Source: Longicatena sp.
Lineage (GTDB): Bacteria > Bacillota_I > Bacilli_A > Erysipelotrichales > Erysipelotrichaceae
NCBI GenBank assembly: GCA_029258245.1
Contig: JARHZK010000165.1
Location: 1-32,976 of the forward strand
Length of the DNA: 32,976 nt
Reading direction: 5' to 3'
In this document: positions 5,286 to 19,253 of the stretch, one piece after another
Numbering within the stretch: the first letter of the stretch is position 1
Layout of the letters: every line of letters begins with the position of its first letter
Made by a program: the position numbers and the translations under genes
The notes under the pieces: generated by a model
Databases searched by the model: none
Seen by the model: the letters and a program-made list of their open reading frames with translations, nothing else
Told to the model about the DNA's origin: nothing

Positions 5286-8200
5286 TTATTTATGTAATTT
5301 TTTTCGTTTTGCCGTAAATAGAGCCATTCCTGCCCCTAGCAATACACCCCATAATACTGCAGTATTTGTTTCTACTCCTGTATTTGGTGTTTGTGGTTGT
5401 TCTACTTTATTAGATGAATTTGGTTTTTCTACTTTTGTTGCTGGTTTTAATTCTGTCATTGGCACTTCTTTATGAGCTGGCTCTAAGTCTGTCCATGGTA
5501 TCTTATGACTACTTGGACCAATTGGTGTCAACTCTGGATTTTCTTTTAATCCTTTATATGCTTCTTGTAATTCTTTTCTTAATTTATTAACAGTTTCTTT
5601 ACTAGCAAATACATCCATATTCATAATATCATCAACTTTATTCACAAATATTTCATAAGAGGATGCTTCATAATCTTCTTTTTGAATACTTGATAATAAT
5701 TCTTGTGCTTCTTTTTGTATTTTTAATACTTCACTTGTATCAGTATTAATTTTTTCATATGCATTAATTTCTGCAGCACTTGCAAATCCACCTTTTCCTT
5801 GAATTTCAAATCGAATTTTATTAAATGTCTGCATTTTATCAAATTGAAATAGATAACCATTATTTGTTAAATTAATAATTTGATCTGTCATTAATTTTGT
5901 TTCTTTTCCATTTGCATCAATTCCAATTACATTTACTTTTTCCCAAGTTCCATTTGAAGCACTTCCACCAGGTCTTGCAACATATTCTAATGCATCAAAG
6001 CTTGTTTCTTTTTGAAAATCAATCGTTAATGTGTGAATATTTTTACACGTATCGTTTCCTCTATAATCTGAATGCCAGTAAGTTGATGGATTATTATCTA
6101 ATACACTAGCTGCAGCTCCATCTGTATTTGGTTTTACTTCATTAGAAGCTTGTGAACATGCACTTGCTTTCCATCCTGCTTTATCTAATTGTTTTGTTGT
6201 TTTTCCAATATTATACTGTTGTGCAAATTTAGCCGCATCGTCATAATAACTAGCACTATTTTTTACTGTTACATTTGCTACATATCCATTAAATTTTTTA
6301 TCACCTAAGATAATTTTATTTCCAGTTAAATTATCTTTTTCTCCTTTCTTATAGAAAGAACTTGATAATCTTCCATCAATATATAATTTAATTGTACCAT
6401 TTAATTCACGTACTGCATTGACTGTATGCATTTGTCCATCATTAATCTTACCTACAATATTTTTATTTGTTGTTGTTTCAACATAAGATTCTGTATTAAA
6501 TCTTCCGTGAGCTTTTTCCTTTACAGTTACAATTTCTTCTTTACTACTGATTTTATTACCTTTTATATCAAATACAATATATCCATCTTGATCAATTGAT
6601 AATTTATAATCATCTGCTTGTTGTAATAATGTTACATTAGAATCTAATGTATCCACTAACAATGAAACACTAAAATCTACATTTCCTTTGATTCCCTCAT
6701 TCGCAACCTTATGTTCTTTATTGTCCAAGTGGAATAAATCCTTTGAAACACTATTTGATTTTATTCCTAAATCAGCTTTTTTATTAATATCCACAATTTT
6801 ATTTGCAGTTCTAATCTTTTCATTTACATCAGCTGCCTTATTACCATAAATATCACGAATTTCAGTAATTTTTAAATTTGCATAATCTTTTAAACCACTA
6901 GCTTTTATTTCAAATGTACGATAATCATCTAATAATTTTGCTTCTTGTTTTGCACCATTCACTACAAATTGAGCCTTATCACTCACACGTTCATTAAAAC
7001 GAACTTCGATTTTATCATTTGATTTAATTTTTGCAGATACTAGTTGTGGTGCTGCATGATCAGTAGAACCAAATTCATAAATTTGAGATGAGAATGGTTC
7101 CAATGTAACCGTTAAATTATCTCCATAATTCACTTTTTCACTCATAGATGTAGATGCATAAGGGTATATACGAGTTTGTGTTAAATCTTTCATACCGGTA
7201 GGTACACCTACAATATTATTTAATGTTAATGTATATGTTTGTTTTTTATTTGTTGGATTAACAAAAGAAACAAATCCTTTCGTATTATCCCATGCTGAAT
7301 ATCCATAAACACCGTTTGATGGTTTCTTTCCTTCTTGAACAAACAATTTTGCATTTTTTAATACATCATGATTTTTTTCTGCAAAATCTAATGCATCAAC
7401 TGTGACTTTCCATTTTGCATCATCGAAGATACTTGGTGAATAATATAATTCCCAGAATGCTGTTCCACGCATTGCATTATCAAACAAGAATTCACGGAAT
7501 ACTTCTGTTGTAGCACTACTACTATCAGATACTCCATAAATTGGATCATGATTATAAATATTTTTTAATGGAAATTGAAGTTCATTTACTTTATATAAGT
7601 TATTATATACATCATCGCGATAATAAATTTTTCGTTGATGTCTTGCTGCTGCTTTATCTCCAGCTTCTCCTGTATCTCCTGAATCTTGCACCCAAATTGT
7701 ATTTACCCATTGTAGTAACCAAGGTGATAAATTAATATAACATGTCGCATTGATCCATAAATCTTTTCCTTCTTTTCTTCTAGCTTCGCGAACATTTTCA
7801 AATAAATCCGTCCATGCTTCCCACATATCACTTGTAAAATACATATTATGGTCTCCACCAACCATATGATCATGTTTTGGATTATTACATGGACGTGATG
7901 CAAATCCATCCCATTTCCAATAATCAATATTAAATCGAGTTTGATAATCTGTGAATCGTTTTTCAAAATTATGAATGTATTTTCTAGATCCTGTACATAC
8001 AACTTTTCCTAAGGCACTATTTGTTTGTGCATATCCTGTACCCATTGCTTCTAAATAATCAGCAAAACCACCGAAGAAATTATATCCACCTTGTGGGCCA
8101 ACCCATACTCCAAAGCTAGAATTTAACTTATCTGCTAAATGAGAAGAAGTATATAATTCATTTGGAAATTTATCATTAAATTCCCAGAATCCTGTTTGGT

Positions 8201-10304
8201 TTAAAGTTGTTCCACTTTCTCCTGGTGCATGTACATTTCCTTCATTATTGTTGTAGTTATTCCATCCATCATCAACAACATAACTATCCAATGGTTCAAT
8301 CCCATTTTCAGCCAATCCTTTTTCTGATCCTAAAAATGATTTTTCAATACTATTATCGTTGATATTCATCATATTATCATACCATGAATTATATTGTTTA
8401 CGGAATTTCGATGGAGTTGCAATATCTTCAATATATTTAAAGAAATCAGTTTGTACGACATCCATTTGTGTTCCAGTTGCTGCACCAATGACATTATTCC
8501 AAGTTCGGAATGTAGTTCCATCCTTCACATTTTGACCATCTTTTGCCATTCTAGCAATTGATTTTCCTGAATAATAACGAATTTGCATCGCATCATTTAC
8601 AATATCTGTATCTTGTGCAGGAAATTCAGATCCAAAGAATAATCCATCGGCATAAATTGGTTGCCCTAACATCAATTCGTGTTTTCCAATCCACATAGAT
8701 GAGATTTTATTTTCATCAGGAATGCTCCAAACCCCTTTTGTATTCTTATCCACTATAAAACGATCAAAATCAATATAATCAATACGTGCTGCATCTGGTT
8801 TATCCGCTGTAATTTCCAAATATGAATTCATGTAATGTTTTCCATTTTCCATAACTGTCACCATATCAATTGACCACATTACTCCTTGCTTTTGATATGG
8901 TGCAAAAGATACTCGTACATCATTGGTACCTTTTGTAATCTTCTCAATTACTAAGTCATTTGATGATATTGATTGATCTACCTTTTTCTTTTCAAACTTT
9001 TGATCTTCAAATAATTTGATTTCTGTAACGCTAAATTCATTTAAGTTGCCTAAGCAATCAGACTTAGGAACAATTTTTACATATCTTGTAGGATATACTT
9101 GATTTAAATTTCCATATGCAAAATCACCTACATTATACAATGTATCACCTTTTTTATAAGTTCCATCAGAAGTTTTTAAATCTTCATCTAATACCACTGT
9201 ATGTAAATGATGATCCTTTTCTGTAAATTCCCCTTTTCCTGCTGGGATCCAATCAGATCCATTTTCACTCACAAACAATTCATATTTCCCCATTGTACCA
9301 TTTTTGCCATACTGTTTATCTTGGTACCCTGGACGTTTATGATAAGCAAATGATCCTACATTCATTTTTGAACCTAAATCAATAACAATCGGTTCATTTA
9401 ATGTTGATGATAAAGAAAATTGAACATTTCCATCACTTAATTGTGATGCATCTGCATGTTTGAAAGTAATTTTTTTATCTTTTAAGTTAATTTCTTTTAC
9501 TGGTAAACCTGTATTTACTTTATCACTATATAAATTAAATTCTGCACCAGTAAATTCTTGTGAACCTCCTAGTACATCGCTTAATACTTCTACTTTTACA
9601 TATTGTGTTACATAGGTTTGATTAAAGTTCGCATAAACAACATCTCCTACATTAAACAACTGATCTTCTTTACGTAAGTGATAATCTTCTTTTGTGAATT
9701 CTCCATTTCCTGCTAAATTCCATTTTTTTCCATCTTCACTCACATAAAGTTTATATTTACCGATAGACCCATTTACTCCATATGCTTCCTCTTTAAATCC
9801 TGGTCTTTTTAAATAACCAAAGGAAGAAACATTCTGTTTAGAACCTAAATTAATCTCTAAAGAAAATGGATGCTCTGTTTTTGTATATTCATCGATTGAT
9901 GTATTCTTATCCCCATCAAATAATTTTGTGACATGGGACTGATCAAATTCTTTACCTGATTTATTCGTAATTTTAGCTTTCCAATCCTTACGATTCAACA
10001 CCTGTTTCGGTGCAACGACAGTTGGATTTTCTTCTTTTGATTCATCTACTAAATGAATCGAAAAGTCTTGTGATCCTTCACTAGGAGTAAAAGTTTCATT
10101 GATGCGCTTATTTTCAATTGACTTTGTACTCCACTTATTCCCTTTTTTATGAAACGTTCTTTTCATAAATTGATTTCCAATGGTAACTGTGTCACCATCT
10201 TCTGTTACAACTACGTTTCCGCCATTCTCTTTTGCATAAAGTGTTTGTGGTACAATGGTGAATAACATAGATGCAGTTAATAAAACTTTAAATAATTTAT
10301 TCAT
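5286..10304 (-). CDS. Secreted, cell-wall-anchored multi-domain glycoside hydrolase, GH36/clan GH-D-like (putative alpha-galactosidase or alpha-N-acetylgalactosaminidase) with F5/8C and LamG-like modules
   Basis: Likely start is MNKLFKVLLTASMLFTIVPQTLYA (signal peptide), not the 10355 ORF start. Catalytic-type motifs YVVDDGW, NIDYWKWDGF and IWVQDSGDTGEAG; two N-terminal F5/8C-like repeats; LamG-like and C-terminal F5/8C regions; C-terminal PQTPNTG, hydrophobic stretch and KRKKLHK sorting signal. Confidence 0.7.
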   Translation of the reverse strand: MNKLFKVLLTASMLFTIVPQTLYAKENGGNVVVTEDGDTVTIGNQFMKRTFHKKGNKWSTKSIENKRINETFTPSEGSQDFSIHLVDESKEENPTVVAPKQVLNRKDWKAKITNKSGKEFDQSHVTKLFDGDKNTSIDEYTKTEHPFSLEINLGSKQNVSSFGYLKRPGFKEEAYGVNGSIGKYKLYVSEDGKKWNLAGNGEFTKEDYHLRKEDQLFNVGDVVYANFNQTYVTQYVKVEVLSDVLGGSQEFTGAEFNLYSDKVNTGLPVKEINLKDKKITFKHADASQLSDGNVQFSLSSTLNEPIVIDLGSKMNVGSFAYHKRPGYQDKQYGKNGTMGKYELFVSENGSDWIPAGKGEFTEKDHHLHTVVLDEDLKTSDGTYKKGDTLYNVGDFAYGNLNQVYPTRYVKIVPKSDCLGNLNEFSVTEIKLFEDQKFEKKKVDQSISSNDLVIEKITKGTNDVRVSFAPYQKQGVMWSIDMVTVMENGKHYMNSYLEITADKPDAARIDYIDFDRFIVDKNTKGVWSIPDENKISSMWIGKHELMLGQPIYADGLFFGSEFPAQDTDIVNDAMQIRYYSGKSIARMAKDGQNVKDGTTFRTWNNVIGAATGTQMDVVQTDFFKYIEDIATPSKFRKQYNSWYDNMMNINDNSIEKSFLGSEKGLAENGIEPLDSYVVDDGWNNYNNNEGNVHAPGESGTTLNQTGFWEFNDKFPNELYTSSHLADKLNSSFGVWVGPQGGYNFFGGFADYLEAMGTGYAQTNSALGKVVCTGSRKYIHNFEKRFTDYQTRFNIDYWKWDGFASRPCNNPKHDHMVGGDHNMYFTSDMWEAWTDLFENVREARRKEGKDLWINATCYINLSPWLLQWVNTIWVQDSGDTGEAGDKAAARHQRKIYYRDDVYNNLYKVNELQFPLKNIYNHDPIYGVSDSSSATTEVFREFLFDNAMRGTAFWELYYSPSIFDDAKWKVTVDALDFAEKNHDVLKNAKLFVQEGKKPSNGVYGYSAWDNTKGFVSFVNPTNKKQTYTLTLNNIVGVPTGMKDLTQTRIYPYASTSMSEKVNYGDNLTVTLEPFSSQIYEFGSTDHAAPQLVSAKIKSNDKIEVRFNERVSDKAQFVVNGAKQEAKLLDDYRTFEIKASGLKDYANLKITEIRDIYGNKAADVNEKIRTANKIVDINKKADLGIKSNSVSKDLFHLDNKEHKVANEGIKGNVDFSVSLLVDTLDSNVTLLQQADDYKLSIDQDGYIVFDIKGNKISSKEEIVTVKEKAHGRFNTESYVETTTNKNIVGKINDGQMHTVNAVRELNGTIKLYIDGRLSSSFYKKGEKDNLTGNKIILGDKKFNGYVANVTVKNSASYYDDAAKFAQQYNIGKTTKQLDKAGWKASACSQASNEVKPNTDGAAASVLDNNPSTYWHSDYRGNDTCKNIHTLTIDFQKETSFDALEYVARPGGSASNGTWEKVNVIGIDANGKETKLMTDQIINLTNNGYLFQFDKMQTFNKIRFEIQGKGGFASAAEINAYEKINTDTSEVLKIQKEAQELLSSIQKEDYEASSYEIFVNKVDDIMNMDVFASKETVNKLRKELQEAYKGLKENPELTPIGPSSHKIPWTDLEPAHKEVPMTELKPATKVEKPNSSNKVEQPQTPNTGVETNTAVLWGVLLGAGMALFTAKRKKLHK

Positions 10305-10362
10305 AAAATCTCCTTTCCCATAGCAACTGTACGCATACCAATATCGAATATGCATACCACTA

Positions 10363-10400
10363 TGCTAGCGCTTACACAATTATATACATAAACGCTTTCA
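10363..10400 (-). promoter_or_regulatory. Two cre-like (CcpA) sites around the glycosidase promoter
   Basis: TGTAAGCGCTAGCA (10376-10363) and TGAAAGCGTTTATG (10400-10387) on the minus strand; -10 TATAAT at 10384-10379 lies between them. Confidence 0.65.
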
Positions 10401-10434
10401 TATTGATTTATAATAATTGTTATTTATTTTGTAC

Positions 10435-10468
10435 ATTTTAGTAAAAATACAATTATTTTTACTAAAAT
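10435..10468. repeat. Perfect 15-bp inverted repeat in a divergent intergenic region
   Basis: attttagtaaaaata-caat-tatttttactaaaat. Confidence 0.85.
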
Positions 10469-10503
10469 ATATTTTTTTAAATTTTTATGAATTTCAATCC
10501 TAT

Positions 10504-10532
10504 TTGACAAACAAAATAAATCATATGATAAT
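10504..10532 (+). promoter_or_regulatory. Promoter of the aldehyde dehydrogenase gene
   Basis: TTGACA (10504-10509), 17 nt, GATAAT (10527-10532). Confidence 0.65.
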
Positions 10533-10594
10533 AACAGATATTACTATAAAATCGTAAATATTATTCTTTTAAATAACGATTGGAAAGGATCCTT

Positions 10595-11974
10595 ATGAAC
10601 GAACTAGATATTTATCATCTTGTAACAGCACAAAAAACGTATTTTCAAACACACGAAACTCTCTCTCTACAATTTCGAATACAAGCACTTTATCGACTAC
10701 AATCCAGTATTCATTCTTATGAAGATGAACTTTACCGTTCCCTCTACAAAGACTTAGGCAAAAGTCCAAGCGAAAGTTATATGTGTGAAATAGGGCTTGT
10801 ATACAGTGAACTTCAATATATGTTAAAGCATATTAAAAAGTTTTCAAAAAAGAAAAAAGTCTATACTCCTTTTGCACAAATGATTTCAAAAAGTTATATT
10901 CAACCTTCACCAAAAGGTAATGTATTGATAATGAGCCCTTGGAACTATCCTTTTCTATTAACAATGACACCACTTATTGATGCGATTGCTGCAGGGAATA
11001 CTGTACTAATAAAGCCAAGTGCCTATGCCCCTAATACTGCAACTGTTATAGAACGTATTATCGATGAAACATTTCCACCAAACTACATTCATGTTATTAC
11101 AGGTGGAAGAAAAGAAAATCAAGCTTTATTAGATCAAAAATTTAACCATATTTTCTTTACTGGTTCCCAATCAGTAGGAAAAGAAGTATTAAAAAAAGCT
11201 TCTGTCCATTTAACATCTGTAACCTTAGAATTAGGTGGGAAAAGCCCATGTATCGTGGATTCAAGTGCGAACATTAAAGTAGCTGCAAAACGTATTGTAT
11301 TTGGAAAATTTTTAAATTGCGGACAAACTTGTGTAGCTCCTGACTACATCTATTGTGATAAAACCATTGTATCAAAACTCATTGCTGCCATTAAATATGA
11401 AATAGAGAAACAATTTACAAAAAATCCACTTCAAAATGCTTCATATGGAAAAATCATTAATAAAAAACACTATGATCGGCTTTGCTCTATCTTAAAAAAT
11501 AATCCAATTTCATATGGTGGGAATACAGATGATTCTTCTTTAAAAATAGAACCTACTCTTCTATATCCTTGTACATGGAAAAACACTATTATGCAAGATG
11601 AAATCTTTGGACCATTACTTCCAATTCTTACTTTTACATCCATAGAAGAAGTAATTGAAAATATAAATAGTCATCCTACACCACTTGCACTCTACCTATT
11701 TTCAAGCAATAAAGCAAATATCAATTGCATTACTTCTACATGCTCTTTTGGTGGTGGATGTATAAATGATACCATCATACATTTAGCGACGTCTCATATG
11801 GGATTTGGAGGTTTTCAAGAAAGTGGTATGGGAAGTTATCACGGAAAATCTGGATTTGATACATTTTCACATTATAAAAGTATTGTGAATAAAAAAACCT
11901 GGTTTGATCTTCCAATGCGCTATCAACCATATACAAAATTAAATGATTTTTTAATAAAATTTTTCTTACGATAA
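10595..11974 (+). CDS. Aldehyde dehydrogenase, ALDH3/YwdH-like
   Basis: Motifs NVLIMSPWNYPFLLTMTP, TLELGGKSPCIV and FLNCGQTCVAPDY (catalytic Cys). The ATG at 10595 with SD GGAAAGGA is preferred to the TTG start at 10580. Confidence 0.9.
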   Translation: MNELDIYHLVTAQKTYFQTHETLSLQFRIQALYRLQSSIHSYEDELYRSLYKDLGKSPSESYMCEIGLVYSELQYMLKHIKKFSKKKKVYTPFAQMISKSYIQPSPKGNVLIMSPWNYPFLLTMTPLIDAIAAGNTVLIKPSAYAPNTATVIERIIDETFPPNYIHVITGGRKENQALLDQKFNHIFFTGSQSVGKEVLKKASVHLTSVTLELGGKSPCIVDSSANIKVAAKRIVFGKFLNCGQTCVAPDYIYCDKTIVSKLIAAIKYEIEKQFTKNPLQNASYGKIINKKHYDRLCSILKNNPISYGGNTDDSSLKIEPTLLYPCTWKNTIMQDEIFGPLLPILTFTSIEEVIENINSHPTPLALYLFSSNKANINCITSTCSFGGGCINDTIIHLATSHMGFGGFQESGMGSYHGKSGFDTFSHYKSIVNKKTWFDLPMRYQPYTKLNDFLIKFFLR

Positions 11975-14210: not shown

Positions 14211-15041
14211 TTAATCATCATCTTCTTCAACATCACCTTCTTCAATATCATCTTCTGCTTCTTCCTCACTATCTGTTTGTTCGTATTCATTTTCTTCTTT
14301 TTCATCTTCTATTAATTCTTTAAAATCTTCATTATTTAATAATTCTGGATGTCGTTGTATAAAAGTGTTCAATTCATCATAAGTAATATCATCATCTAAA
14401 TCATCCATTTCTTTTTCTTTCCTTTGTTTTGCAACATATAATCCTAAATTGCATTTTAATGATTTTGCGCTTTCTATATCTTTTGTTTGTCCTTGAATAA
14501 ATAATAGATCTTCTTCATCTATTAACTGATGAACAATATCAATTAATTCTTCTTTATCCTCTACATCATTTTCATTATAAAATGCATATCCAATAAGATA
14601 TGAATCTTGATTCGTATTCAATAATTCTTTTAATTGTTTTTTTATACTCTCTATTTTTTTTCCTTTTAATTGATTTAGTCTTTCCTTATTAATTGTTGTA
14701 TCATAAGTAAATACATCTCGAATTTTATGTTTATCATCTATTTCAAGTTGTAAACTTTTATTTCCATCAAACGACACCATTGCATATGCATCTACTGGCT
14801 TTAATACTTCTGAAAAATGTAATGTTACAAATAACAAAAATATAGTGAGAGTCGTTATCACTATTTTAGTAAGTGGCTTTTGCATAAAGGTCGAAATTTT
14901 AGAATTTTGAACTTTTTCATTATAAATATCTTCATTTAGAAAATATATTTGCTCTCCTACTTGCATATTGCCTTTTTTATAGATACGTACAATCTTCCCT
15001 GTATCTTCCATTACAAGACAATACATTTCTTTGATTTCCAT
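14211..15041 (-). CDS. RsgI-like anti-sigma factor with a short, highly acidic C-terminal tail
   Basis: N-terminal EIKEMYCLVMEDTGKIVRIYKKGNMQVGEQIYF resembles the anti-sigma RsgI N-domain; single TM (ITTLTIFLLFVTLHF); follows a SigI-like gene. Start placed at MEIKEM (SD AAAGGA). Confidence 0.75.
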   Translation of the reverse strand: MEIKEMYCLVMEDTGKIVRIYKKGNMQVGEQIYFLNEDIYNEKVQNSKISTFMQKPLTKIVITTLTIFLLFVTLHFSEVLKPVDAYAMVSFDGNKSLQLEIDDKHKIRDVFTYDTTINKERLNQLKGKKIESIKKQLKELLNTNQDSYLIGYAFYNENDVEDKEELIDIVHQLIDEEDLLFIQGQTKDIESAKSLKCNLGLYVAKQRKEKEMDDLDDDITYDELNTFIQRHPELLNNEDFKELIEDEKEENEYEQTDSEEEAEDDIEEGDVEEDDD

Positions 15042-15051
15042 AATTAATCCT

Positions 15052-15720
15052 TTATGATACATGATGATTACACCTCGATTTCATAATCCATTGTAAAAGT
15101 TGTTTAAATTCTTTAATAAATAAAATCATAGTTCCTAATATAAATACTTTGCTATGTTTAATTATTTTTTCACTCACATTGCTCACCTTTGCTACATGGC
15201 GAACGGGTAATTTTCTTTTCTGGTACATTTGTGTTACAACTTCATGATCATCACTTGCAACTTCTGCTATATCTATCGCTCTTTCTTTTGTATCTTTATG
15301 TTTTGGAGCTTCATCTGCAAGTTTCTCTAATGTTAATCCAAAAATTTTTAATTCTTTACAAAATAATTCAATTTCTTCTTGTAAATCAATTGAAGTTGAC
15401 GAATGATTTTGTGAAAACTCAATACCTTGTTCATACAACTCATCTAATGAAATTGCTTTATTTTGATTACTCTTTAATTGTGTAAAATTTAACAATCTAC
15501 TTTCTATTACCAATTTTGCAAAACTCAAAAAATTACCTTTTTCTTGATCATATTTTTCTACTGCTTCTTTAAATGCAAGCAAAGCAATACTAAATTCATC
15601 ATCATTTTCAATCGCTATATAACGTCCTGTGAAATTACTCGTTGTTCGAATGATAAAAGCCATATGAGATTTGATCAATTCATCGATATGCTCCATATCA
15701 ATTGTTTCACTAAATATCAT
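15052..15720 (-). CDS. sigI: SigI-like RNA polymerase sigma factor
   Basis: HMAFIIRTTSNFTGRYIAIENDDEFSIALLAFKEAVEKYDQEKGNFLSFAKLVIESRLLNF (region 2-like) and LPVRHVAKVSNVSEKIIKHSKVFILGTMILF. ATG at 15720 with SD GGGGGA. Confidence 0.8.
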   Translation of the reverse strand: MIFSETIDMEHIDELIKSHMAFIIRTTSNFTGRYIAIENDDEFSIALLAFKEAVEKYDQEKGNFLSFAKLVIESRLLNFTQLKSNQNKAISLDELYEQGIEFSQNHSSTSIDLQEEIELFCKELKIFGLTLEKLADEAPKHKDTKERAIDIAEVASDDHEVVTQMYQKRKLPVRHVAKVSNVSEKIIKHSKVFILGTMILFIKEFKQLLQWIMKSRCNHHVS

Positions 15721-15741
15721 GACCAATCCCCCTTATAGTAG

Positions 15742-15771
15742 TATAGTATCATACTATATTAACAGAAACAA
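15742..15771 (-). promoter_or_regulatory. Putative sigI promoter overlapped by a perfect palindrome
   Basis: tatagtat-c-atactata (15742-15758). TTGTTT (15771-15766), 17 nt, TACTAT (15748-15743) on the minus strand. Confidence 0.45.
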
Positions 15772-15781
15772 TTTCTTAACT

Positions 15782-16447
15782 TTATGAATTTTGTGCTAAT
15801 AAATTTACACTATCAATTCCTCCCACATCAAAAATATAATGAATAATTCCATTTGTATCTTTTTCCTTAATTTCCACCTCATACACCAATTCAAAAGAAT
15901 CCGATAGTATATTCTTAGCTTTTATTTGATTCTTTCCTTCAATCGTATTCACAATACCTTGAATACTATCTAAATCGGCATGAGTTCCTCGTACAACCAA
16001 TAACATTGGTTTTGTGTGACCATCTTTTTCTTTTGTAGTTACCATAATTCCAAATAATATAATACTTCCTAAAAAAACAATCATATAACTTTGTGTAGCT
16101 GAAGCAATTCCTATTGCCATAGACCAAAAAATAAATCCAATATCTCTATAATCTTTGATATTTGTTCGAAAACGAACGATAGATAACGACCCTAACATAC
16201 CTAATGATAACGCTAAGTTTGATTGAATTAAATCCATTAATACTGTAGAAATTAATGCTAAAATAATTAATGTTATTCCAAATTCAGCATGATAGGAATG
16301 CTGATCATGTGAAATTCTATACGCACCCCACATAATAATTGCAAAAATAAGGGATACTGCTAAACTAATAATAATCGCCATATTTCCTGGCTTATTTGAA
16401 ATAATTGCTAATAATTGATTCATCCCTTCATCGAATTGACTCTCCAT
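15782..16447 (-). CDS. DUF4956 membrane protein (copy 2)
   Basis: LSLGMLGSLSIVRFRTNIKDYRDIGFIFWSMAIGIASA; several TM segments; clear paralogue of 17627-18295. Confidence 0.85.
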   Translation of the reverse strand: MESQFDEGMNQLLAIISNKPGNMAIIISLAVSLIFAIIMWGAYRISHDQHSYHAEFGITLIILALISTVLMDLIQSNLALSLGMLGSLSIVRFRTNIKDYRDIGFIFWSMAIGIASATQSYMIVFLGSIILFGIMVTTKEKDGHTKPMLLVVRGTHADLDSIQGIVNTIEGKNQIKAKNILSDSFELVYEVEIKEKDTNGIIHYIFDVGGIDSVNLLAQNS

Positions 16448-16449
16448 AT

Positions 16450-17616
16450 TTATTCCTCCCCTTTAAATTCATCTAATTTATGAAATTCTTGATCATATAA
16501 TACTGCCTCTTCTTTATCATCATTATCCCACACATGATTTTGTTTCCATATCATACATCCATCCGTTGGTTTAGAATTATTTTGACAACAAATTTCAAGT
16601 TTAGTTTTGGATGGTATAGTGGTATTCAATGGAATTTGAAACCATTCTTCACCCTTTTTAGATCGTATAAGATAATTTGATACATTTATATTTTGATTAC
16701 TTTCATTCGACAAAGTAATCATTTGTTTATTTACATCATATCCATTAATTTTAATATTTGATTCTATCTCTTTATCATATATATATTCTAATGAAATATT
16801 TTTTTTATTCGATATGAAATCAATTGCAATTTGTTCTCCTTCAGAATAAAATGTGCTGACTCCATATGCATCTAATCTACTTTTAATTGTTTTATTAACC
16901 GATTCTGGATTTTCTTTCTTATTCCCTGTTATAATTCCATATCGAGGTTTTACTTTTTCCAATAATGCTATGGATGTTGCATCTTTTTCTCCATGATGCC
17001 CTAATTTTAGCACATCACTTTTGATGTTTTTGTTTTCAAACAGAAAGTTTGCTTCTTCCTCTTTTTCCATATCTCCACACATCAAAAAAGATGTATCTCC
17101 ATAATTTATTTTCATTACCATCGAATTATTGTTTTCATTTACTTTATCTACATGTGATGGTATCCAAATTTGAATAGAAGTATCTCTAAATTTTAAATTT
17201 TCTCCTCCATTTAAATAAATTAAATCAATTCCTTTTTTTGTAACAATATCCTGAACTTTGCTTTTTCGATAGGATACTACATCTTTTTTCGATACATATA
17301 CTTTTTTTGTTGGAATTAAATCAATAATCGTTTCTACATTCCCTGCATGATCCAAATGTCCATGAGATAAGAAAATGCCTTTCAATTCATCTACATGTTT
17401 CATTTTTAAAAATCTTGCTATTTTAGCAAAGTCCTGCCTTTTTCCTGTATCACACAAATAATATCCTTCATTAGGAATATCTATTAAAAATGCATCACCT
17501 TTTCCTATATTTATAAAAGATATTTTTAATTGTTCTTTTGATGTAGTATTTTCAACACTAGTACATCCTGTTAGTAACAGGAATAAACAGACCCATCCTA
17601 CTTTTAGCCATTTCAT
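16450..17616 (-). CDS. Lipoprotein with a ComEC-type metallo-beta-lactamase-fold domain and a C-terminal lamin-tail-like domain
   Basis: Lipobox LLLTGC; MBL motifs LSHGHLDHAGN, LMCGDMEKEEE and LKLGHHGEKDATS; C-terminal INGYDVNKQMITLSNESNQNINVSNYLIRS...VWDNDDKEEAVLYDQ resembles a lamin tail domain. Confidence 0.85.
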   Translation of the reverse strand: MKWLKVGWVCLFLLLTGCTSVENTTSKEQLKISFINIGKGDAFLIDIPNEGYYLCDTGKRQDFAKIARFLKMKHVDELKGIFLSHGHLDHAGNVETIIDLIPTKKVYVSKKDVVSYRKSKVQDIVTKKGIDLIYLNGGENLKFRDTSIQIWIPSHVDKVNENNNSMVMKINYGDTSFLMCGDMEKEEEANFLFENKNIKSDVLKLGHHGEKDATSIALLEKVKPRYGIITGNKKENPESVNKTIKSRLDAYGVSTFYSEGEQIAIDFISNKKNISLEYIYDKEIESNIKINGYDVNKQMITLSNESNQNINVSNYLIRSKKGEEWFQIPLNTTIPSKTKLEICCQNNSKPTDGCMIWKQNHVWDNDDKEEAVLYDQEFHKLDEFKGEE

Positions 17617-17626
17617 TTAAATTCTC

Positions 17627-18295
17627 CTATGCAACTTGTGTTTCAGGAGCTAATACATTCACTCCACGAATACCATCTAATTCATCCAATTTATCTAATA
17701 AATCACATTTTTCTAAATTCTTTTGTTGAACTTCATAAACTAATTCAAATGTTTCACTAAAAATATTCTTACTCTGTACACTACTACCTGCTACTTCATT
17801 GAACATATTTTGTACAGTTTTTAATTGCGTTTTTTCTCCTCTTACAATCATTAATAATTTATGTTTTCTTTTTTTATTGTGATTTAATATAATCATAATT
17901 ACACCAATAAACAAAGAGCTAATAATAATTACACTGAAAGCTCCTATTGCAGATGAAATGCCAATCGATAATGCCCAAAAAATAAATCCTAAATCTCTTG
18001 GATCCTTCGTATTTGTTCGTATTCTACAAATGGAAAGTGATCCTAAAACACCTAATGATAATAATGGATTATTTTGAATTAATGCAAGTAACACAGTTGT
18101 AATCATGGATAACATTAATAATGTTACATTAAACTTTTTATTGTATGTCAATGAATCATGACATAATCGGTAAACACCCATCATAAATAATCCAATACAC
18201 AATGTAACGATTAAACTAATCAATAAATGTGTTCCTGTTAAAACATATGCTTGTTCTACAGGACCATTAAAAAATAATTTTAAAAATTTGCTCAT
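17627..18295 (-). CDS. DUF4956 membrane protein (copy 1)
   Basis: LSLGVLGSLSICRIRTNTKDPRDLGFIFWALSIGISSA; paralogous to 15782-16447. Confidence 0.85.
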   Translation of the reverse strand: MSKFLKLFFNGPVEQAYVLTGTHLLISLIVTLCIGLFMMGVYRLCHDSLTYNKKFNVTLLMLSMITTVLLALIQNNPLLSLGVLGSLSICRIRTNTKDPRDLGFIFWALSIGISSAIGAFSVIIISSLFIGVIMIILNHNKKRKHKLLMIVRGEKTQLKTVQNMFNEVAGSSVQSKNIFSETFELVYEVQQKNLEKCDLLDKLDELDGIRGVNVLAPETQVA

Positions 18296-18310
18296 CTTAT
18301 TTCTCTCCTT

Positions 18311-19036
18311 TTAATAATAGTATTCTTTTAAAATTTGACGCGATGTTCCAAATTTACTTGGTGGTTTTCTAGTTAAATCACATTTTGTTAAAATTTTTTG
18401 AATTTGTTTAAATAAAAAGCGATCATATTTTATTTCTAGAATAGTTTCATCTTTTGGCAGTGCTTCTTTAAAATTTAAATGACGAGAAAATAAATCATAG
18501 TCAAAATCACAATACCTTAAATTATTATCCATTGTAATTCTCGTATTAAAATTTTCATGAGTATAGGCTCTACGGTCATATTCAATTAATGATACTGGTC
18601 GATAACATCGTGTAGTCATTAAATCATATGCATATCTTGCTGTATCACTATCATAGTGTAATAGAACTTTAAAATTACATTTCAATAATTCTTTCGCATC
18701 TGCTCTTGAAATCACAACACTTTCTTTTAATTCTCTACCATAACTTTTTCTTTTCAATTCGAATTTTGCTACATGATCGTCTGGATGATATATACGAACA
18801 CGGATTCGTTTTTTTTCATTCGCATGCATTTTTTTATCAATATAATCTTCATTTGTAATACTATCAAAGTAAACACTTCTTACCGTATACCCATTATATC
18901 CACCATATGCATCTGGTGTTAAAATTTGATCTAATGCATCTAGTAAAAAAAGACGATCTGGCAAAGAAATTAGATATTTTATTTCACTTCTTGAAACAGA
19001 TAGTTTTTTTACTTCATTCCCTAGTAACATTATCAT
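18311..19036 (-). CDS. VTC-domain protein (polyphosphate polymerase-like)
   Basis: RSEIKYLIS, YTVRSVYFDS, KKRIRVRIYHPDD, KFELKRKSYGRELKES and ILEIKYDRF match VTC-domain patterns; next to DUF4956 genes. Confidence 0.85.
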   Translation of the reverse strand: MIMLLGNEVKKLSVSRSEIKYLISLPDRLFLLDALDQILTPDAYGGYNGYTVRSVYFDSITNEDYIDKKMHANEKKRIRVRIYHPDDHVAKFELKRKSYGRELKESVVISRADAKELLKCNFKVLLHYDSDTARYAYDLMTTRCYRPVSLIEYDRRAYTHENFNTRITMDNNLRYCDFDYDLFSRHLNFKEALPKDETILEIKYDRFLFKQIQKILTKCDLTRKPPSKFGTSRQILKEYYY

Positions 19037-19127
19037 TTTCCTCCTTTGTATTCTTTTTTTCCTTCATTACATAATACCGATATTCATTCAATTTTAAGGA
19101 CCACTTTTTAAAAAAATATTTTTTTAT

Positions 19128-19204: not shown

Positions 19205-19253
19205 AATAAAATAGACCGATATCAAGTTTTACTTAATATCGGTCTATTTTATT
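19205..19253 (-). terminator. Terminator of the transketolase genes
   Basis: aataaaatagaccgatat-loop-atatcggtctattttatt, perfect 18-bp inverted repeat abutting the stop codon. Confidence 0.85.

Follow-up and report, generated by a model that had tools for sequence, protein, structure and literature searches.

Does a SigI-type sigma factor govern the VTC and DUF4956 genes that lie beside it, and what would such a cassette do? The question is raised by positions 14,211 to 19,036 of a 32,976-nucleotide stretch of DNA from the gut bacterium Longicatena sp. (GenBank assembly GCA_029258245.1, contig JARHZK010000165.1, positions 1 to 32,976), which is referred to here as the window. A first-pass annotation of this DNA had tied a SigI/RsgI pair to the VTC and DUF4956 genes. 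In relatives this proposal stood, the linkage being conserved and accompanied by promoters; for the window copy it found no support, as that copy does not appear to be the same unit by descent. The explanation that we propose, and to which we give a little less than an even chance, is that the cassette serves as a surface polyanion module under the control of a sigma/anti-sigma pair; it would be the counterpart, derived or convergent and without the kinase, of a unit that is widespread in the Bacillota and consists of SigI, RsgI, a SEAL lipoprotein, VTC, DUF4956 and CotH. The six gene calls of the first-pass annotation all held, in strand, coordinates and profile matches. The features of the locus are as follows.

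19206..19252, minus strand: terminator-like hairpin upstream of VTC, between the VTC and transketolase genes (hairpin search)
18311..19036, minus strand: VTC-domain protein, predicted cytosolic triphosphate-tunnel polyphosphate polymerase (PF09359, E 3.5e-29; nearest solved structure, yeast Vtc4)
17627..18295, minus strand: DUF4956 membrane protein #1, five transmembrane helices and an ACT-like domain (PF16316, 7.5e-12)
16450..17616, minus strand: surface lipoprotein with a ComEC-like metallo-beta-lactamase fold and a lamin-tail domain (MBL-LTD) (Lactamase_B, 1.2e-13; LTD, 3.1e-7)
15782..16447, minus strand: DUF4956 membrane protein #2, paralogue of #1 (PF16316, 3.7e-14)
15742..15758, no strand: perfect 17-nt palindrome TATAGTATcATACTATA in the gap between DUF4956 #2 and SigI, its sole perfect copy in the window
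15052..15720, minus strand: SigI-type sigma factor, divergent (NF006170, 1.1e-59, below the curated cut-off)
14211..15062, minus strand: RsgI-type membrane anti-sigma factor with an acidic C-terminal tail (PF12791, RsgI_N, 3.3e-10)

VTC genes were found in 207 of the 316 genomes of the order, a SigI match in just 44 of them, and the bona fide SigIs of the order mostly adjoin VTC. The gene order that recurs at the SigI loci is SigI, RsgI, a secreted lipoprotein, VTC, DUF4956 and a CotH kinase, where the lipoprotein carries an RsgI_M (SEAL) domain, often together with a PepSY domain. When used as the sole query, the window SigI found no relatives in the scan of genome contigs. An alignment of unit-type SigIs was used as the query instead, and a scan of the contigs of about 85,000 species returned 80 SigI loci, mostly from Lachnospiraceae, Oscillospiraceae and Erysipelotrichales, a sample that is biased by construction toward the SigI clade of the unit. 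Among the 42 loci with at least 6 kb downstream, VTC was present in 34 and CotH in 37. The usual partner of VTC and DUF4956 in relatives is the CotH kinase, which the first-pass annotation had overlooked and which the genome of the window lacks (no PF08757 match in a metagenome-assembled genome that is ~97% complete). A locus from the sister family (L141, 5535-11054) encodes in a row a SEAL-PepSY lipoprotein with TNY/SNY repeats in its tail, an extracytoplasmic function (ECF) sigma factor, a SEAL-domain anti-sigma factor, VTC, DUF4956 and CotH. Since the ECF pair occupies the place of SigI and RsgI, control by a sigma/anti-sigma pair with a SEAL sensor recurs with unrelated sigma factors. Traorella massiliensis (L145) carries a SigI-linked CotH and a SEAL lipoprotein. 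Locus L174 is without VTC and CotH, and its sigI (10001-10729) is broken up over two frames in the assembly.

The regions upstream of sigI in the relatives share the sequence ACCCC-x-x-TTTT-N-CGTATTCTAT, in which the two parts lie exactly 24 nt apart in 79 of 83 cases; the site can also be written ACCCCGGTTTT-N13-CGTAATCTAT. These ACCCC...CGTAT sites resemble the published SigI promoters ACCCCC...CGAA and CCCYYAAA...CGWA (PMC4711584). A promoter weight matrix was trained on the sigI upstream regions alone and then run over all loci. In 63 of the 70 output units it located a second SigI-type site immediately ahead of the SEAL-VTC-DUF4956-CotH part, and it detected no site in the 42 loci without SigI or in 2.35 Mb of shuffled sequence. 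Taken at the level of sequence, these results are strong cis evidence that the VTC genes of the relatives are members of a SigI regulon. In Atopococcus tabaci (L157:12463-13325), SigI, RsgI and a SEAL protein occur without VTC or CotH, and an extra SigI-type promoter precedes a secreted PepSY protein, suggesting another member of the regulon.

In the relatives, RsgI and the SEAL lipoprotein both have C-terminal tails with D-[S/T]-x-Y-[D/G] repeats, e.g., DSGYDD or DDTDYGPNNDGVTDYN. Where CotH is present, the last 90 residues of RsgI hold on average 6.3 [ST]xY motifs, against 1.4 that composition predicts, and those of the lipoprotein hold 11.8, against 2.1; where CotH is absent, the mean is about 0 in the tails of both proteins. 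After removal of near-duplicates, the motif was found in 41 of 41 loci with CotH and in none of the eight complete loci without it. Three lines of evidence indicate that the motif tracks CotH, not VTC. The motif is retained at L200, L214 and L218, which have CotH without a nearby VTC. It is lost at five loci of the same SigI clade where VTC, DUF4956 and CotH are all missing and where RsgI and the lipoprotein persist, their tails being poly-Asp. The window, which has VTC and DUF4956, is without both CotH and the motif, with no [ST]xY repeat in the last 90 residues of its RsgI. The CotH of the unit starts with an N-terminal signal anchor, which places the kinase outside the cell, where the tails are also located. 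We consider it somewhat more likely than not that, within a SigI regulon, these [S/T]xY tails are modified by CotH. Correction for phylogeny left two independent pairs in the clade of the unit SigIs and five overall, too few for significance; the pairs within that clade agree with the association. No published description of this SigI regulon or of the association of CotH with [ST]xY was found in the literature searched.

These observations led us to consider a fuller scheme of SigI/RsgI-controlled extracytoplasmic phosphorylation, in which VTC would make polyphosphate, DUF4956 would export it, and CotH would phosphorylate the D-[S/T]-x-Y repeats in the tails of RsgI itself and of the SEAL lipoprotein, which would complete a feedback loop. 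The window would then be a variant that lost the kinase and the repeats and has a hydrolase lipoprotein instead. As a whole this scheme seems unlikely to us. It is a guess that polyphosphate could be the phosphate donor of CotH, the outside of the cell being poor in ATP. Bacterial VTC proteins, DUF4956 proteins and CotH kinases of the non-spore type occur commonly among gut Firmicutes, and we found no paper that assigns them a shared function. The comparison places the three in one sigma-controlled regulon, with a promoter sequence and with short, likely target repeats that track the kinase, so that their function becomes directly testable. If true, it would add an extracellular protein-modification pathway linked to phosphate polymers and envelope sensing, with the window copy as a natural dissection in which kinase and repeats are gone and VTC and DUF4956 are retained.

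What the window cassette itself could do was approached through its proteins. Its VTC protein matched PF09359 with 102.4 bits (cut-off 23), and a profile built from 20 VTC proteins, with this one at its head, had yeast Vtc4 as its top solved relative. The first-pass annotation had made its assignment depend on the basic and acidic residues of the tunnel, and the conserved ones were all present. R16, K20, R79, R81, E93, K95, Y153, R155 and R166 are kept at positions aligned with the Vtc4 tunnel and are invariant in the alignment; E201, S227 and K228 are also kept, paired with Vtc4 by motif; E201 and K228, likewise invariant, lie beyond the Vtc4 alignment shown. We take the Vtc4 tunnel residues K200, R264, R266, K281, R361, R373, E426 and K458 to be the counterparts of K20, R79, R81, K95, R155, R166, E201 and K228, respectively. 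The genome, an assembly of 1.95 Mb in 259 contigs, has a single VTC gene and no detectable PPK1; at its ~97% completeness, the absence of PPK1 or of CotH falls short of proof. Polyphosphate is the presumed product of the window VTC and would also be what is exported. As in the yeast VTC complex, where the Vtc4 polymerase is joined to a transmembrane channel, an enzyme whose tunnel has conserved acidic and basic residues would work with a membrane partner; unlike in yeast, that partner would be a protein of its own, the MgtC-like DUF4956, whose sequence matches no solved structure. A VTC gene elsewhere (G045:C1:308058-308704) is spread over two overlapping frames, has an internal TGA and is apparently broken or mis-assembled.

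The DUF4956 proteins #1 and #2 scored 45.7 and 53.3 bits, respectively, against PF16316 (cut-off 30.6). Their sequences matched no solved structure. An AlphaFold2 model of #1 (predicted local distance difference test score, pLDDT, 83) has five transmembrane helices and an ACT-like domain, the nearest folds in a Foldseek search were ACT domains, including the C-terminal domain of MgtC, and a relative matched the MgtC/SapB model PRK09977 (4.9e-9). The two copies share 38% identity with each other, compared with ~30% or less with most others, and therefore look like the result of a duplication within the operon.

The lipoprotein between them has a lipobox (LLLTGC), the metal motif HxHxDH (HGHLDH), a Lactamase_B domain (51.9 bits, cut-off 22.7) and a lamin-tail domain whose score is slightly under the cut-off (31.2 bits, cut-off 34.3). 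The best curated model for the metallo-beta-lactamase part was ComEC/Rec2 (1.7e-35). This match raises the alternative that the lipoprotein is a ComEC-like surface nuclease and that the cassette handles extracellular DNA, with another role for VTC and DUF4956. However, the score is below the curated cut-off, the transmembrane part of ComEC is absent, and VTC, DUF4956 and SigI have no known role in DNA uptake, which makes this alternative highly improbable. The surface hydrolase of the first-pass annotation is not a conserved partner of VTC: MBL-LTD orthologues adjoining VTC were found neither in the order nor among 392 genomes sampled from the phylum, and the window holds the only VTC-adjacent one seen in these searches. 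MBL-LTD and VTC share a contig in just one other case (G257, L142), with other genes in between.

In the explanation that we favor, that of a kinase-less surface polyanion module, a cytosolic VTC enzyme would make polyphosphate from ATP, the MgtC-like DUF4956 proteins would conduct or anchor it at the membrane, and the MBL-LTD lipoprotein would split a phosphoester or phosphoanhydride polymer outside the cell. The one-pass RsgI with its acidic outer tail would retain SigI until the state of the envelope shifts, and the released SigI would drive the module. The substrate of the hydrolase and the control of the window copy by SigI are presumed here. Within the window this explanation draws on the match to Vtc4 and its tunnel residues, the lack of PPK1 in the genome, and a compact same-strand cassette bounded by a hairpin; among relatives it draws on the conserved unit, the SigI-type promoters and the ECF substitution in L141.

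The cassette is tightly packed. Gaps of 15, 10 and 2 nt separate its first four genes, 55-61 nt then precede sigI, and sigI shares 11 nt with rsgI. DUF4956 #2 has its Shine-Dalgarno sequence (GGGGAGGA) inside the last codons of the lipoprotein gene, as had been noted at first. A strong hairpin (19206-19252) parts VTC from the gene upstream, and no terminator-like hairpin was found within the cassette. A TTG at 15726 was considered as the start of SigI and was replaced by the likelier ATG at 15720, which has AAGGGGG upstream.

Several results speak against the explanation we favor, the first being the origin of VTC. In a quick tree, the window VTC fell in a clade with eight SigI-free loci (Shimodaira-Hasegawa-like approximate likelihood ratio test, SH-aLRT, 99). 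Most loci of this clade carry VTC, DUF4956, CotH, a protein of ~700 amino acids, a HEAT protein and a glycosyltransferase (GT2), and by its sequence the window VTC groups with this exopolysaccharide type. The pair VTC-DUF4956 could therefore serve an exopolysaccharide system, the cassette being a remnant of a VTC-DUF4956-CotH-HEAT-glycosyltransferase operon minus its polysaccharide genes. The same order is listed for Clostridium perfringens NELoc-2 (PMC2879425), and CotH-PPP-DUF4956, where PPP corresponds to VTC, accompanies Gram-positive pel clusters (PMC7112168). This alternative is quite improbable in our view, as the genome has no CotH, no glycosyltransferase is among the neighboring genes examined, and the neighbors are instead MBL-LTD, DUF4956, SigI and RsgI; MBL-LTD stands in the place of CotH, and the duplication of DUF4956 suggests continued use. 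Loci L109, L114, L115, L118, L133, L138 and L140 have a conserved VTC-DUF4956-CotH-(~700 amino acids, without a Pfam match)-HEAT-GT2 operon in the NELoc-2 order. A third VTC clade (L142:5164-8362, L122:5958-9405) has VTC and DUF4956 with a carbohydrate-binding lipoprotein of the Cthe_2159 family in place of CotH.

The remaining points on that side concern SigI, RsgI and the architecture. The window SigI scored 201.9 bits against NF006170 (cut-off 271) and 162.5 against TIGR02895 (cut-off 185), still by far its best family. In the trees it falls outside the SigI clade linked to VTC, on a very long branch; sisterhood to that clade was not rejected (approximately unbiased test, p 0.46), and membership in it was not established. 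The window RsgI has an RsgI_N domain (40.1 bits, cut-off 25), one transmembrane segment and an acidic outer tail; its central domain is poor (RsgI_M, PF23750, 16.3 bits, cut-off 25.3, E 0.015) and reads DGNKS where the VTC-linked RsgIs have xNP, the Asn-Pro motif being lost. Cleavage of SEAL/RsgI domains at Asn-Pro is covered in a review (PMC12203970). The loss suggests that the window RsgI would be cut by a protease and not by itself. The cassette has no SEAL lipoprotein gene. No site in the window scored above 3 with the ACCCC-N-CGTAT matrix. A candidate VTC promoter, CCTTAAAA-N12-CGGT at 19099, was discarded, as the window has four such matches and shuffled sequence is expected to have ~6. 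The gap ahead of sigI includes the perfect palindrome, which might be an operator for some regulator or part of a separate sigI promoter. Finally, a second genome with the exact architecture was found neither in the order nor in the class-wide and phylum-wide samples.

Together with the lack of a SigI-type promoter ahead of VTC, the 55-61 nt gap with its palindrome favors a further alternative, in which SigI and RsgI are a separate general sigma/anti-sigma unit that has its own promoter and merely adjoins a VTC operon it does not control. The gene order of the window is also reversed with respect to the conserved unit, and its SigI is nearest by identity to non-VTC SigIs (32%, L082), which it weakly joins in the full tree. 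On the other hand, the genes are on the same strand, compactly spaced and with no terminator-like site in between, and chance adjacency is unlikely a priori because SigI is rare in the order and its bona fide copies mostly lie beside VTC. Overall we consider independence of the two parts somewhat unlikely. With VTC in a SigI-free clade, SigI not placed inside the VTC-linked clade, RsgI without Asn-Pro and an architecture found in no other genome searched, we conclude that the window is an outlier and not a member of the conserved unit, and that its cassette is a derived or convergent one of the same general kind.

Known systems resemble the cassette in part. As in the SigI/RsgI systems of Bacillus subtilis and of Clostridium thermocellum, where they regulate the cellulosome, a SigI-type sigma factor adjoins a one-pass RsgI_N anti-sigma factor with an outer tail; the outputs here are VTC-DUF4956(-CotH), not cellulosome genes, and the window RsgI is without the Asn-Pro motif and a recognizable central domain. 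VTC also adjoins DUF4956 in the accessory set CotH-PPP(VTC)-DUF4956 that accompanies Pel clusters of Gram-positive bacteria (PMC7112168), whereas the window has MBL-LTD and SigI/RsgI and lacks pel genes, CotH and DUF4832. The gene table of NELoc-2 (CP4_0458-0468) lists SigI, a hypothetical protein, VTC and an adjacent membrane gene of DUF4956 size, then a second VTC and CotH, a linkage that is given no function there (PMC2879425); unlike NELoc-2, the window has MBL-LTD and is without CotH and the glycosyltransferase.

Two other genes of the window were unusual or large. A single 669-amino-acid frame (840-2849) encodes a MATE-type transporter (MatE) with a cytidylate-kinase-like domain fused to its C-terminus, an unusual combination, and positions 5286-10355 encode a secreted protein of 1689 amino acids that contains F5/8 type C domains, has a sortase-like tail and resembles a large surface glycosidase.

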